This document shows, piece by piece, positions 1-6,006 of a DNA stretch of 41,219 bases. Source of the stretch: Bacillota bacterium. GTDB lineage: Bacteria; Bacillota; SHA-98; UBA4971. The notes under the pieces were generated by a model. The model had not been told where the DNA came from. It was given only the letters and a program-made list of their open reading frames with translations, and made no database searches. Positions within the stretch are counted from its first letter, which is position 1, and each line of letters starts with the position of its first letter. The DNA is taken from assembly GCA_012516125.1 (NCBI GenBank), contig JAAYXB010000008.1:1-41219 (forward strand). The letters are read 5' to 3'. The position numbers and the translations under genes are program-made.

Positions 1-138
1 CTCGGGGACGGCGCCCCAAGCGGGGCGCGCTTCGCCAAAATCCGGCCCGTCCGGCTAGGCAGCCGGATTTTGACACCCCTCGTGCAATCACCGGCAACCC
101 CTCCCAAAAGTCGGGAGCATTTTTGCACCCCCACTTAG
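1..138 (-). repeat. Interspersed repeat, partial copy cut by window edge
   Basis: This is the reverse-orientation counterpart of the full element at 31102-31293. It contains the GC-rich hairpin GCGCCCC..GGGGCGC, the inverted pair around AAAATCCGG/CCGGATTTT, the arm CACCGGCAACCCCTCCC, and the terminal CACTTAG at 132-138. The other end lies outside the window. Repeats of this kind often break assemblies, which may be why the window starts here. Confidence 0.85.
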
Positions 139-175: not shown

Positions 176-613
176 TGACCACGGGCAGGCGTGAAAGTGG
201 CCGAATTGCTACCACTTCTGGCGCCCACTGGGGAAGAGTGGTGGAAAAACCATCATGACAAGCGGGGAAGTGGTCATCAGATAGCCACCTGAGCGCGGGG
301 GACTGACCAAATGCTTACCACCTCCAGCCGGGTGCGCGGCAGACTGGCTGCGGAGTTACCACGGTAGCTGCACGAGGTGGTAACCAGATCGCCATTCTTG
401 CCGCAAGATTGGCTGAATCCTGACCACTTCCGGCCACGGGCCCGGCAGACCGGTAAGGGAGTCGCCACCTCGGCCGCGCGTGGTGGCAAGAAGATGGCCA
501 CCTTTTTGGTGCGCCTGGCGAGAAAGTCGCTACCTTTGAGCGGGAGCTCGCCGAAGTGGTGAAGAAACGGCCGGCATGAGCGCGCAAGGTGGTAAGAAAA
601 CTACCGCCTTGGC
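176..613. repeat. 106-bp-period tandem array with palindromic cores
   Basis: This stretch of about 440 bp upstream of the adenylate cyclase holds no convincing gene. Matching motifs recur exactly 106 bp apart. CTACCACTTC (209), TTACCACCTC (315) and TGACCACTTC (421) form one series. GGCAGAC occurs at 338 and 444, and GTGGTAA/GTGGCAA/GTGGTAA at 377, 483 and 589. A hand comparison of 315-394 with 421-500 gives about 55 of 80 identical positions. Each central unit carries an inverted repeat, TTACCAC-N14-GTGGTAA at 356-383 and its counterpart at 462-489, in which an A-T pair has become G-C on both sides. A related inverted repeat, AAGGTGGTA/TACCGCCTT, ends the array at 586-610. The period is not a multiple of three, so the repetition is not coding. 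Confidence 0.75.
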
Positions 614-699
614 GGCGATTGAGACAATGATATGGTGATGGTCACGCGCAAGAGCCAGCAAGGCAGGAGTGCAGCATAGCGCTGTAGAAGATTCCTTTC

Positions 700-2550
700 A
701 TGAAGCGCACATCCGCGGCGGGGCGCAGCGAGCCCCGGCAGTTTAGAACGATAGCTGCAGGCATCCTCATAGCGATGGTGGTCACCTGCCTCTACGGTAC
801 AGGCGCAGGCGAGCGCGTGGGGCTTGCCGCGTATGACCTGTGCCACAGGGTGGCGCCCGTCCCGCGTCCGACGCCGCGCATCGTCATTGTGGCCATCGAC
901 GACCAGTCCCTTGCAAACCTCGGGCGATGGCCGTGGCCGAGGTCATACCATGCCAGGCTCGTCGAGATTCTCACCCGCGAGAAGGCGAAAGCCATAGGGT
1001 TCGATATCATGATGCCTGATGAGTCCGGCGACCCCGCGGCCGACGACGCTCTGGCGAGGGCTGCTGCGGCTTCGGGCCTCGTCGTGTTTCCATTCCATGC
1101 CGAAAACAAGGTGCTTCCGCGCGGGGCCCGCGTGTTCTATGCCGCCGGGGCGCGAAAGCCGCCGTATCCGGCACTTGAGCGCGCGGCCGCTACCGGCAGT
1201 GTGATCGCGGTGCCGGACGTGGACGGCATCCTGCGCCGCCATGTTCCCGTTGTCATGGACGGAGGAAGGCCGCGCTACTCGCTTGACGTGGAGATCGTCA
1301 GGGTCTTTCTGGGGCTTTCGCCCTCTGAGGTCTCCCTTGCCAGAGGTGAACTCCGGGTAGGCCCTGTGAGTATTCCGATGGACCCGACGGGGCGCGTCCT
1401 CATTCGGTATTTGTCCGGTTTGCCTGATGGCCTGCGCTACAAGACTTTGCCCTACTACAGGGTTCTTCGCGGCGAGTTCGCGCCTGGCGAGTTCGAGGGA
1501 AAGATCGTTCTTGTGGGCGTAACCGCGCAGGGGCTCCACGACTTCTACTTCACGCCTCTTGCGACGGCGGGGAACCCGATTCCGGGCGTGGAGATACACG
1601 CCAATACCGTGCAAGCGCTCCTCGACGGCCTCCTTGTGCGCGAGCCTCTTAAGCCGTATGCAGGGGTGCTTTTCGTTGCGCTTTCGGTGGTGCTCGTGGT
1701 GGCATTCCAGAGACTCCGGCCGCAAGTCGCATCCGGGGCGGCGCTCGCCATGGCCATTTGCGTCGCCTGGCTCAGCGTCCTCTTGTTTGCCCGGGTGAAC
1801 GTCTGGGTCGACCCTATGCCCGTCATGGCGATCCTCGCCCTGGTGCTGGGGCATCACCTCGTAGTTGCGTATGCGCGCACCGAAGCCGAGAGGGCGAGGA
1901 TCAGGGCGACGCTCGGCCGATATCTCTCGCCCGCGGTGGTGGACGAAATCCTTAGAGACCGCAGCGAGGTAGCCCTCGGGGGAAGGCGGCTCGAAGTAAC
2001 CGTCGTGTTCGCCGACATCCGTGGCTTCACGTCGTTTGCGGAGAAAGAGGATCCCGAGCGTGTGGTGGACGTTCTCAACGCCCACCTTTCCATGATGGTG
2101 GAGGCCATCTTCAGGGAAGGCGGCATGCTCGATAAGTTCACCGGAGACGGCGTCATGGCCGTTTTCGGGGCCCCGGTGCTCCAGGAGGACCACGCCCTTC
2201 GGGCGGCCAGGGCTGCAATTGCTATCAGCAAAGCCTGCTCGCGGGCGGCCGAAGCGGCCGGGCCCGCCGGCGCGGCCCGTGGCGGTGACGTCAGGCTCAG
2301 CGTGGGCGTGGGAGTGGCCTCGGGCGAGGCGGTGGTGGGCAATATCGGCACCCTTGCCCGGATGGACTACACCGCCGTCGGCGACACCGCGAACCTTGCT
2401 GCGAGGCTCGAGGGCATGGCACAGCCGGGCCAGGTCCTTGTGTGTGGACGGACGTACCAGGCCATACACGGGGCAGTGGATGCGCGCCGGGTCGGGTCCG
2501 TTGAGATAAGAGGCAGGTCGGCGCCTGTGGACGTTTACGAACTCCTGTGA
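700..2550 (+). CDS. CHASE2-domain class III adenylate cyclase
   Basis: This 616-residue membrane protein is predicted to make cAMP from ATP in response to an extracytoplasmic signal. It starts with a transmembrane segment (about residues 17-36), then a CHASE2 sensor domain (about 40-310), three closely spaced membrane segments (about 318-400) and a C-terminal class III nucleotidyl cyclase domain (about 430-616). Metal-binding aspartates are visible in FADIRGFT (D439) and KFTGDG (D483). K479 and T558 (YTAVGDTAN) match the Lys/Thr pair of bacterial class IIIb adenylate cyclases. N565 and R569 are the transition-state residues, so the enzyme looks intact. The ATG at 700 has only a weak ribosome-binding site, and no better start is seen. 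The gene is followed by a perfect CRP-type box, a FecR gene and a Crp-family regulator, which supports cAMP over cGMP. The sensed signal is unknown. Confidence 0.93.
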   Translation: MKRTSAAGRSEPRQFRTIAAGILIAMVVTCLYGTGAGERVGLAAYDLCHRVAPVPRPTPRIVIVAIDDQSLANLGRWPWPRSYHARLVEILTREKAKAIGFDIMMPDESGDPAADDALARAAAASGLVVFPFHAENKVLPRGARVFYAAGARKPPYPALERAAATGSVIAVPDVDGILRRHVPVVMDGGRPRYSLDVEIVRVFLGLSPSEVSLARGELRVGPVSIPMDPTGRVLIRYLSGLPDGLRYKTLPYYRVLRGEFAPGEFEGKIVLVGVTAQGLHDFYFTPLATAGNPIPGVEIHANTVQALLDGLLVREPLKPYAGVLFVALSVVLVVAFQRLRPQVASGAALAMAICVAWLSVLLFARVNVWVDPMPVMAILALVLGHHLVVAYARTEAERARIRATLGRYLSPAVVDEILRDRSEVALGGRRLEVTVVFADIRGFTSFAEKEDPERVVDVLNAHLSMMVEAIFREGGMLDKFTGDGVMAVFGAPVLQEDHALRAARAAIAISKACSRAAEAAGPAGAARGGDVRLSVGVGVASGEAVVGNIGTLARMDYTAVGDTANLAARLEGMAQPGQVLVCGRTYQAIHGAVDARRVGSVEIRGRSAPVDVYELL

Positions 2551-4005: not shown

Positions 4006-4695
4006 TTGAGGCAACAACCTGTGGAGATTCTCGGAGCCGTGCCCCTCTTCAGCCGTCTGGACCAGGCGAGCCTTGCAAAGCTTTCGGGGATCGCGCGCGG
4101 GCGCCGTTATGAACGCGGCAGCCCCATATTCTTCGAGGGTGACCCCGGTGGTTCTCTCCTGGTAATCGCCGCAGGTGCAGTCAAGATCCACAAGGTCTCT
4201 GAGGACGGGCGCGAGAAGACCCTTGCCATCCTGGAGGCCGGGGACTTTTTCGGCGAGATGAGCATCTTCGATGGAGCACCCAGGTCTGCCGCCGCACAAG
4301 CTCTGTCTGACTGCGAGGTGCTCATCATCGATCGCGACCCATTCCTCGCTCTAATGAAAAGCACACCGGGGCTTGCCACTGACATCGCGCTTGCCCTCGC
4401 CGAGCGCTTGCGCAGGACCAACGAGGACCTGGAGCGCCTTGCGTTTCGCGACGCGCGCGGCAGGATCATCGAGGCCTTGCTACAGCTTGCGCGCGCGCAT
4501 GGCGAGAGGGTGGCCCAGGGCGTGCGCCTCAAGGTCAGGCTGACCCACCAGGAGCTTGCAAACTACGCTGGCGTGACCCGGGAGACCGTCACAAGGGTGC
4601 TCGCTGAGCTTCACGACAGCCGGCTTGTCGCGGTCGAGGACGACAGGCGCCTCGTCATCCAGAACGAGGACGCCCTGCGCGAGCTCGTGACCTGA
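4006..4695 (+). CDS. Crp/Fnr-family regulator, probably cAMP-responsive
   Basis: This is a 229-residue transcription factor. The cyclic-nucleotide-binding beta-roll (about 12-125) carries a phosphate-binding cassette with GE at 83-84 and RS at 93-94, equivalent to the residues that hold cAMP in E. coli CRP. A dimerisation helix and a winged HTH (about 155-220) follow. The recognition helix reads TRETVTRVLAEL. R192, E193 and R197 are spaced like R180, E181 and R185 of E. coli CRP, which contact TGTGA. No FNR-type cysteine cluster is present. The start is the TTG at 4006, behind GGAGGTGG; no ATG fits. With a class IIIb adenylate cyclase and a perfect TGTGA-N6-TCACA box just upstream, it is probably the effector of a local cAMP circuit. 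Effector and target are inferred from residues and context. Confidence 0.9.
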   Translation: MRQQPVEILGAVPLFSRLDQASLAKLSGIARGRRYERGSPIFFEGDPGGSLLVIAAGAVKIHKVSEDGREKTLAILEAGDFFGEMSIFDGAPRSAAAQALSDCEVLIIDRDPFLALMKSTPGLATDIALALAERLRRTNEDLERLAFRDARGRIIEALLQLARAHGERVAQGVRLKVRLTHQELANYAGVTRETVTRVLAELHDSRLVAVEDDRRLVIQNEDALRELVT

Positions 4696-4782
4696 GATGC
4701 TTTCGCTTTCGGCCGCCGTCCGCGTTTTCCGCTCCGTTCTCCGTGTCCTGTGCTCCGTGCGGGCCTTCACTCCTTGTGGGAA

Positions 4783-4798
4783 CGTGATGAAAAACACA
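4783..4798. promoter_or_regulatory. Weak CRP-like site
   Basis: CGTGA-TGAAAA-ACACA matches TGTGA-N6-TCACA at eight of ten positions. It lies downstream of the Crp-family gene and upstream of the acidic secreted protein at 5113. One site with two mismatches could be chance. It matters only because a perfect site and a plausible binder are close by. Confidence 0.25.
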
Positions 4799-4891
4799 CC
4801 TCTCCCGTGACCGCCGCAACGTGCGCTCGTTTGCTGTGCCCTGATAATGAGAGCAGAAAACGCGCGGGACTCTACAGACCAAACCGCGCGA

Positions 4892-5089
4892 CTAAGCGGG
4901 GGTGCAGAAATGCTCCCGACTTTTGGGAGGGGTTGCCGGTGCTTGCACGAGGCTGTCAAAATCCAGCCACTTGCCCGGCGGGCCGGATTTTGGCGAAGCG
5001 CGCCCCGCTTGGGGCGGCGTCCCCGAGTGCAACACCGCCAACCCGCCAACTGCTGGCAAAGGGACAAGGACTAACGCACCCTCACTTAG
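4892..5089 (+). repeat. Full-length interspersed repeat, type B right end
   Basis: The copy runs from CTAAGCGGGGGTGCAGAAATG to CCCTCACTTAG. Its left arm GACTTTTGGGAGGGGTTGCC, the AAAATCC..GGATTTT inner stem and the GCGCCCCGCTTGGGGC hairpin match the element at 31102-31293. The last 50 bp differ: they carry ACTGCTGGCAAAGGGACAAG and CTAACGCACC, as in the copy at 18956-19083. It fills most of the 417-bp gap 4696-5112 and stops 23 bp before the next start codon. Confidence 0.85.
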
Positions 5090-5112
5090 GACAGAAGGGG
5101 GATAGGTGCACC

Positions 5113-6006
5113 ATGAAGCGGCGGGTCTGGAAATGGTGGAAGGTCGTGATGGTAGGGGTCTTCGTTCTCATGCTTGCCTTCGTGCTTCCTGCATGGGCGA
5201 GCAGCCCTGTCGGGACCCCAGGGGCGGGCAGCCCGGCGCTCAGGGCCGACGGCGGTTCCACGGGCCCAGGCGAGCCTGGCGACGAGGATGACGACCAGGG
5301 CGGCGGGGACGGCGCGGGCAACGGCGGTCAGGACGGCGATGACGGCGGCGGCCATGATGACGATGGTCGCGATGATGGCAACGGCGCCGGGAACGGGCAT
5401 GATGACGGCCAGGACAATCCCGGGGATGGCGCGGGCGGCGACGACGGCAATGGGAACGACGATGGCGATGATACAACCGGCGGGGCGGATAGTGGCGGCG
5501 GCCAGGCTGGCGCGGGTAGCGGCTCCGGCTACGACGATTCTAACGTGGACGACAACGATGGCAACAACAATGACAATAACAACGACAACAACAATGACAA
5601 TGATAATAATGACGAGCATGAGGATTCTTTTGACGGGGAAGACATGGCAGAGTACGCGCAGTCCCTCGGACTGGGCGAGGAGTTCGTTGCTCGCGTGGCG
5701 CGCCAAGCGAGCAGGGCAGGGGTCGATAAGGAGAAGCTGGCGGCTACGCTCCGCCTCATGGCCGAGCTTGTGCAGCAGGGTTACTTCCTGGACCTCGCTC
5801 AGGGAGCGGATGGATCGGTCGACCACGATGCGAGCGGCGCGCCGTCTTTCGACGAGCTCGACGAAAGCACCCAGGCTCGTCTGGGCGAGACTCTTGCAGA
5901 GGTCGTGCGCACCCGCGACCACGAGTGGATTCGCGAGAAGCTCATGGCCTGTGCCAGGGCGGGCATGACCGCGATCGAAGCTATAGAAGCCCTTGCAAGC
6001 GAGTGA
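5113..6006 (+). CDS. Secreted Asp/Gly/Asn-rich protein with helical C-terminal domain
   Basis: I do not recognise a family. The 297-residue product has a classical signal peptide (hydrophobic core VVMVGVFVLMLAFVLP, cleavage near AWA). A very acidic, low-complexity Asp/Gly/Asn segment of about 125 residues follows. The C-terminal part, about 120 residues, is predicted helical (from DMAEYAQSLGLG to the end). Near 5545-5620 the linker DNA becomes a GAC/AAC/AAT-type microsatellite, clearly AT-richer than its surroundings and probably length-variable. The ATG at 5113, behind AGAAGGGGG, opens directly into the signal peptide; longer readings of the frame would translate the repeat. The acidic segment could bind divalent cations or act as a flexible spacer on the cell surface (inference). 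The neighbouring FecR protein carries a similar acidic tail. Expression is probably separate from the crp gene because a repeat intervenes. Confidence 0.8.
   Translation: MKRRVWKWWKVVMVGVFVLMLAFVLPAWASSPVGTPGAGSPALRADGGSTGPGEPGDEDDDQGGGDGAGNGGQDGDDGGGHDDDGRDDGNGAGNGHDDGQDNPGDGAGGDDGNGNDDGDDTTGGADSGGGQAGAGSGSGYDDSNVDDNDGNNNDNNNDNNNDNDNNDEHEDSFDGEDMAEYAQSLGLGEEFVARVARQASRAGVDKEKLAATLRLMAELVQQGYFLDLAQGADGSVDHDASGAPSFDELDESTQARLGETLAEVVRTRDHEWIREKLMACARAGMTAIEAIEALASE

Follow-up and report, generated by a model that had tools for sequence, protein, structure and literature searches.

The window, by which we mean the whole 41,219-nucleotide stretch of Bacillota DNA that was analyzed, begins inside a MITE-like repeat, and this is followed by a row of palindromic sites that lies 94 bp upstream of a cyclase gene. 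Based on lag analysis, pattern scans and alignments, the following features were annotated at this end of the window.

1–138, minus strand: right part of the MITE-like repeat, adjoining the array; the contig begins inside it, and further copies occur in the genome
165–612, no strand assigned: array of about 12–13 palindromic sites (lag analysis with half-site and core pattern scans)
195–300, plus strand: first unit, diverged, in which two palindromes are shifted by 1 bp relative to each other (half-site scan and alignment)
301–406, plus strand: 106-bp unit 1, with palindromes at +0, +41 and +74 (gap-free alignment)
375–397, no strand assigned: example of a 23-bp site, AGGTGGTAACCAGATCGCCATTC, with half-sites 14 bp apart (half-site scan)
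407–512, plus strand: 106-bp unit 2, 63% identical to unit 1 (alignment)
513–618, plus strand: 106-bp unit 3, whose last palindrome, near 612, ends the array (alignment)
700–2550, plus strand: gene for a CHASE2 - adenylate/guanylate cyclase, the downstream neighbour of the array, with orthologues that lack an array

In an ungapped self-comparison of positions 140–700, lag 106 gave the highest match among lags 5–299 (0.464), with lag 212 as the runner-up. At the same lag, 500 dinucleotide shuffles of this region reached 0.262 ± 0.020 (maximum 0.338; 0/500 attained 0.464), and no shuffle matched the observed value at any lag below 220. Among 80-nt stretches, identity at lag 106 peaked at 68.75%, compared to a maximum of 55% over any lag in 200 shuffles. 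The 106-bp period proposed in the earlier note was thus recovered by self-comparison and was not reproduced by randomized sequences; the three motif series that it listed are present, and its hand count of about 69% identity over 80 positions agrees with the computed value. Tandem-repeat analysis succeeded through self-matching at lag 106 but not with Tandem Repeats Finder, which did not detect the array at 165–612 even at score 30, because the repeats are too diverged.

The true unit is shorter than this period: a 17-bp palindrome, TGGY-N9-RCCA, with inward-facing half-sites (17–23 bp including flanks). In a half-site scan, almost all copies in the window array had their half-sites at a distance of exactly 14 bp. 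The 17-bp cores start at 165 (degenerate), 198, 239, 271, 304, 345, 378, 410, 451, 484, 516, 557 and 590, with consecutive spacings of 33-41-32-33-41-33-32-41-33-32-41-33 bp, and the 106-bp period comprises three palindromes with spacings of 41, 33 and 32 bp in order. Seven units, drawn from the window and a second array in a sister genome, align without gaps, supporting this three-palindrome unit. The degenerate core at 165 carries the array further left than the earlier note had drawn it. The two motifs that it had combined into one palindrome of the type TTACCAC-N14-GTGGTAA do occur 21 bp apart (TTACCAC at 356, GTGGTAA at 377), but they are the right half of one palindrome and the left half of the next. 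The adjoining MITE-like repeat is about 197 bp long and has the terminal repeat CTAAGTGAGGGTGC; copies lie at L002 1291–1487 and L004 ~2110–2260, and there are many in the genus.

Distribution and turnover of the arrays

A profile search with the repeat unit found many further places in the window genome (G000) and in G004, some in G001 and G003, and no match in G002 and G005. The exact pattern GTGGTAA..TTACCAC had no match in the genome. When 398 genomes were scanned for three consecutive palindromes with spacings left free between 31 and 42 bp, there were 93 matches in G000 and 123 in G004, followed by G011 (29), G013 (28), G001 (19), G009 (15), G003 (13) and G389 (12), with single matches in four further genomes; the genomes are draft MAGs, in which the number of arrays counted near contig ends may be inaccurate. 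A reversed control pattern gave 0 matches in 398/398 genomes. Records that share the array geometry belong to Ca. Fermentithermobacillaceae DTU015 and AS08sgBPME_389 (array spacing 32-32-41 in this family), UBA4981, UBA6811 and other Bacillota MAGs, and rows contain about 10–30 sites. Matches in Pseudomonas, Falseniella, Niveispirillum, cyanobacteria and others whose period was uniformly 42 or 33/34 bp were set aside collectively, unchecked one by one, as probable coding repeats. Viral contigs were rejected as array carriers, their matches consisting of just a few 33-bp repeats that were almost identical and did not resemble the present arrays.

Two classes were distinguished. Class A has GTGG...CCAC sites with a spacing of 33-32-41, and class B has CTGGTCCC...GGGACCAG sites with a spacing of 32-32-52-32-32-41. 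Class B is present in G000 in >15 copies that share about 85% similarity and frequently lie at the ends of contigs. At seven loci (L043, L049, L050, L051, L054, L058 and L060), it is embedded in a longer dispersed repeat whose sequence is conserved to either side, and part of the pattern therefore reflects plain copying. The arrays occupy ordinary intergenic contexts (20 between tandem, 6 between divergent and 4 between convergent genes), and no shared neighbour gene was seen among the dozens of arrays per genome. At one locus of G001, a SAM riboswitch (L071 2587–2713) lies between two palindrome arrays.

Arrays are gained, lost and contracted between close relatives. For example, the array at 64.4–64.9 kb of contig C89 in G000 has about one palindrome left in G004 and is missing in G003. 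Likewise, the adh–feoA intergenic region contains a class A array in G004 (33-32-41) and a different array, of TGGTCG-type sites, in G000 (32-32-52), even though the flanks of the two genomes are about 91–92% identical (L218, reverse complement, 625–822; L068 3734–4248); the same region contains no array in G002 and G005.

Whole-turn spacing and independent half-sites

The array spacings equal three, four or five helical turns. With spacings of 31–34, 40–43 and 50–54 bp allowed when arrays were chained, nearest-neighbour distances numbered 311, 106 and 27 in these ranges, respectively, and 444 of the 446 spacings within 31–60 bp fell into one of them, with 2 elsewhere; a further 26 spacings at 20–30 bp were mostly partial or overlapping matches. 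A recount on sites from the free pattern (31–42 bp) gave 84 spacings at 31–34 bp, 41 at 41–42 bp and 16 at 35–36 bp, the 16 exceptions being near-exact tandem repeats or one parS-like array. The linkers between 17-bp sites are 15/16, 24 or 35 bp long. Their identity between families (0.28–0.31) is close to that of random sequence (0.25–0.29), whereas the TGG/CCA blocks are conserved at 0.90–0.95, a value that is partly ascertained because sites were accepted with no more than 2 of 8 positions missed. Neutral DNA would lose both the length and the sequence of a linker; the retention of length after sequence has been lost implies that length is selected, or is rebuilt by a process that depends on spacing.

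Pairing between the two halves of each site was analyzed in 35 arrays containing 369 palindromes, with class B kept apart and with halves shuffled within the same array as the control. Across these 35 non-B arrays, half-site complementarity was no greater than in the shuffled sets (|z| <2 at every position), and there was no G.U bias or strand bias of wobble pairs, with T–G and C–A mismatches about equally frequent. RNA or cruciform pairing was looked for in both possible pairings, and in both the pairs were no more complementary than shuffled ones; a compensatory A-T to G-C change that had been pointed out between units is consequently not part of any covariation trend. In class B, positions 4/14 and 5/13 covary to some extent (z 3–4), which is best explained by the relatedness of its copies. 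The half-sites vary independently around a symmetric consensus, which is the pattern expected from a homodimeric DNA-binding protein, and these sequence patterns favor DNA sites recognized by a symmetric dimer over RNA hairpins and cruciforms. Of the two kinds of selection that the earlier note had suggested, for protein binding or for structure, the former is supported by the kept TGG/CCA blocks and spacings, the near-random linkers, the whole-turn rule and the independent half-sites, and the latter is not supported, given the lack of covariation.

Possible origins and roles

We consider it fairly probable that the window array belongs to a set of dispersed, intergenic, helix-phased arrays of sites for a putative DNA-binding protein that acts as a symmetric dimer. 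The sites are inverted repeats of 17 bp, TGGYNR-N5-YNRCCA, that extend to about 23 bp with flanks; each would accommodate one putative dimer, and rows of up to about 30 sites at 32–33, 41–42 or 51–53 bp would place the dimers on one face of the DNA, where the aligned dimers could build a rod-like or looped nucleoprotein complex. We infer a dimeric protein that reads the sites and cooperative binding as the reason that the phase is kept. Our searches found neither an array-binding protein nor a co-distributed gene, which counts against this explanation. The arrays may serve the cell (chromosome organization) or may persist as non-autonomous mobile repeats. It is doubtful, albeit conceivable, that the arrays amount to a chromosome-organizing system of several Bacillota families, in which dozens of intergenic arrays with 10–30 dimer sites at three, four or five turns would be bound by a putative protein that assembles rods or clusters of nucleoprotein serving as boundaries, anchors or silencers; half-site specificity would have diversified between classes under a fixed geometry. 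Palindrome arrays as such are already known; here, the whole-turn rule outlasts linker similarity across uncultured Bacillota families, and the kept spacing suggests that a protein recognizes each array as a whole. Such a binder, if found, would be a new chromosome-organizing protein or would reveal a new route by which intergenic repeats spread, and the spacing rule provides a simple pattern to find arrays in any genome. A limited literature search (a few phrases in a partial library) returned no description of such arrays.

An unlikely account is that the arrays are non-autonomous mobile DNA, with sites bound by a transposase of the MuA, TnsB or IstA type, and that they spread or persist in this way. 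Presence/absence and swapping at orthologous sites, as well as the multi-copy state of class B, are consistent with it, and IS21/Mu/Tn7-type ends resemble the arrays in their repeated TGGTCA-like half-sites, which in IS21 lie 33–34 bp apart. Some IS21 ends carry two TTGACCAC motifs at this distance, like the half-site and pitch of the arrays; two TTGACCAC / TGGTCAA motifs 33–34 bp apart are found in the left ends of IS21-family elements at L276 1394–1434, L277 1394–1435 and L254 1873–1926. However, IS21 ends have about two direct repeats, whereas the arrays have 10–30 inverted-repeat sites without a transposase. Other intact istA/istB (IS21) elements of the clade have no arrays, no IS21 transposase was matched in the array-rich G009, G011 and G389, and G007 and G008 contain IS21 without arrays; neither clean ends nor target duplications were found. 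There is no C-terminal IstA domain in G000, and one IS21 remnant in G013 adjoins an array. IS21 was therefore rejected after profile searches and inspection of ends: certain IS21 ends do have a suggestive half-site and 33-bp pitch, but where the elements occur does not match where the arrays occur. IS110/Transposase_20 was also rejected, with no match in the array-rich G011 and G389.

Clearly less probable is that these are REP/BIME elements mobilized by a RAYT (Y1) transposase that reads folded palindromes in single-stranded DNA. The arrays are dispersed, intergenic and variable, as in the BIME/REP elements of E. coli, Stenotrophomonas and Xanthomonas, which also vary between close relatives; their palindromes fall within 20–40 bp and are clustered; and BIMEs are likewise rows of palindromes with conserved linker lengths (PMC2817692). 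On the other hand, Y1_Tnp had no match in the array-rich G000, G001, G004, G013 and G389, leaving them without a cognate RAYT, and G009 and G011 had only short fragments. Moreover, the arrays have no GTAG/CGTC-type tag pair, they are near-symmetric with whole-turn spacing across families, and the 35 non-B arrays show no complementary mutations that would keep a hairpin. The missing Y1 transposase in the main array-rich genomes, together with the lack of hairpin covariation, rules against membership in the RAYT/REP family. In behaviour, the arrays are best read, by analogy, as a BIME-type intergenic repeat. Neisserial intergenic mosaic elements (dRS3/RS arrays) are a second point of comparison: they are intergenic, multicopy rows of ~20-bp palindromes separated by repeat segments, as the present arrays are, but differ in sequence and phylum, and we know of no fixed short whole-turn spacing in them.

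It is very improbable that the arrays are partition sites, resembling centromeres, of plasmids that integrated or were lost. The precedent is F sopC, with ten functional 43-bp repeats (PMC7205306); like the present arrays, sopC/ParB centromere arrays consist of about 10 tandem palindromes with a pitch near four turns, and they are bound by a dimeric protein, as is predicted for the present arrays. On the plasmid-like contig L129, ParA and a ParB-like gene are followed by TGGTTCACCGTGAACCA sites 32–33 bp apart. In contrast, sopC is a single site per plasmid located next to sopAB, whereas the arrays number dozens per chromosome without adjoining par genes: a parAB operon lies beside neither the window array nor the other chromosomal arrays and was found only in the look-alike L129. 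In addition, the window sites lack a parS-like TTCAC/GTGAA core. In mode of action, the closest analogues would be BIME/NIME-type intergenic mosaics or sopC-type centromere arrays. The L129 array itself (Clostridia, 960–2268: ParA, a divergent ParB-like protein, and TTGGTTCACCGTGAACCAA sites 32–33 bp apart) is probably a plasmid centromere and exemplifies what such geometry serves elsewhere. At the end of a Lachnospiraceae contig (L150 21–321), TGGTTCAACGTGAACCA sites recur every 35–36 bp in a parS-like array.

Even lower is the probability of a transcribed RNA array, either a TIGR-type stem-loop array, a kind that is transcribed and processed to 36-nt RNAs, or another tandem hairpin RNA. The tandem repeats of TIGR arrays (TIGR-Tas) begin with UG, end with CCA and have regular spacers, as in the present arrays, and palindromic edges occur in some TIGR arrays (PMC12045711). 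Nevertheless, TIGR repeats are 8–12 nt long with 9-nt spacers (8–12 in stem-loop arrays) (PMC12045711), whereas the present sites measure 17 bp with linkers of 15/16, 24 or 35. The arrays also lack covariation of the RNA type and a strand bias of wobble pairs, occur dozens of times per genome without a common neighbour gene, and have no IS110/Transposase_20 match in the array-rich G011 and G389. Inspection of neighbours alone recognized no adjoining Tas/Nop gene, and Rfam matched none of the arrays, the only match being the SAM riboswitch between the two L071 arrays.

CHASE2-cyclase orthologues are present in 5/5 other genomes of the genus. In four of them (G001, G002, G003 and G005), the upstream neighbours of the gene are kept and there is no array, with an intergenic gap of only ~80 bp in G001. 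G004 keeps the array at this locus in a form ~245 bp shorter, and the spacing across the deletion is again 41 bp. Because the array is missing at orthologous cyclase loci, the window array and the MITE-like repeat were gained in the G000/G004 lineage or lost elsewhere. The earlier note had implied a link to the cyclase and proposed looking upstream of homologous genes; this link is not supported in the four same-genus genomes, and similar arrays lie beside many unrelated genes. The window array is not a cyclase operator, and the copy upstream of this gene probably inserted neutrally; at most, it would act locally as a silencer or insulator. That the sites control the adjacent cyclase, for instance via the Crp-like regulator at 4006–4695, is the least credible reading, with the position 94 bp 5' of the gene in its favor and against it the absence from four genomes with conserved gene order, the comparable arrays beside unrelated genes and the shortening in G004. 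Further downstream, the open frame at 4750–6006 has a long Asp/Asn/Gly-rich stretch, in which positions 5548–5607 repeat GACAACAACAAT.
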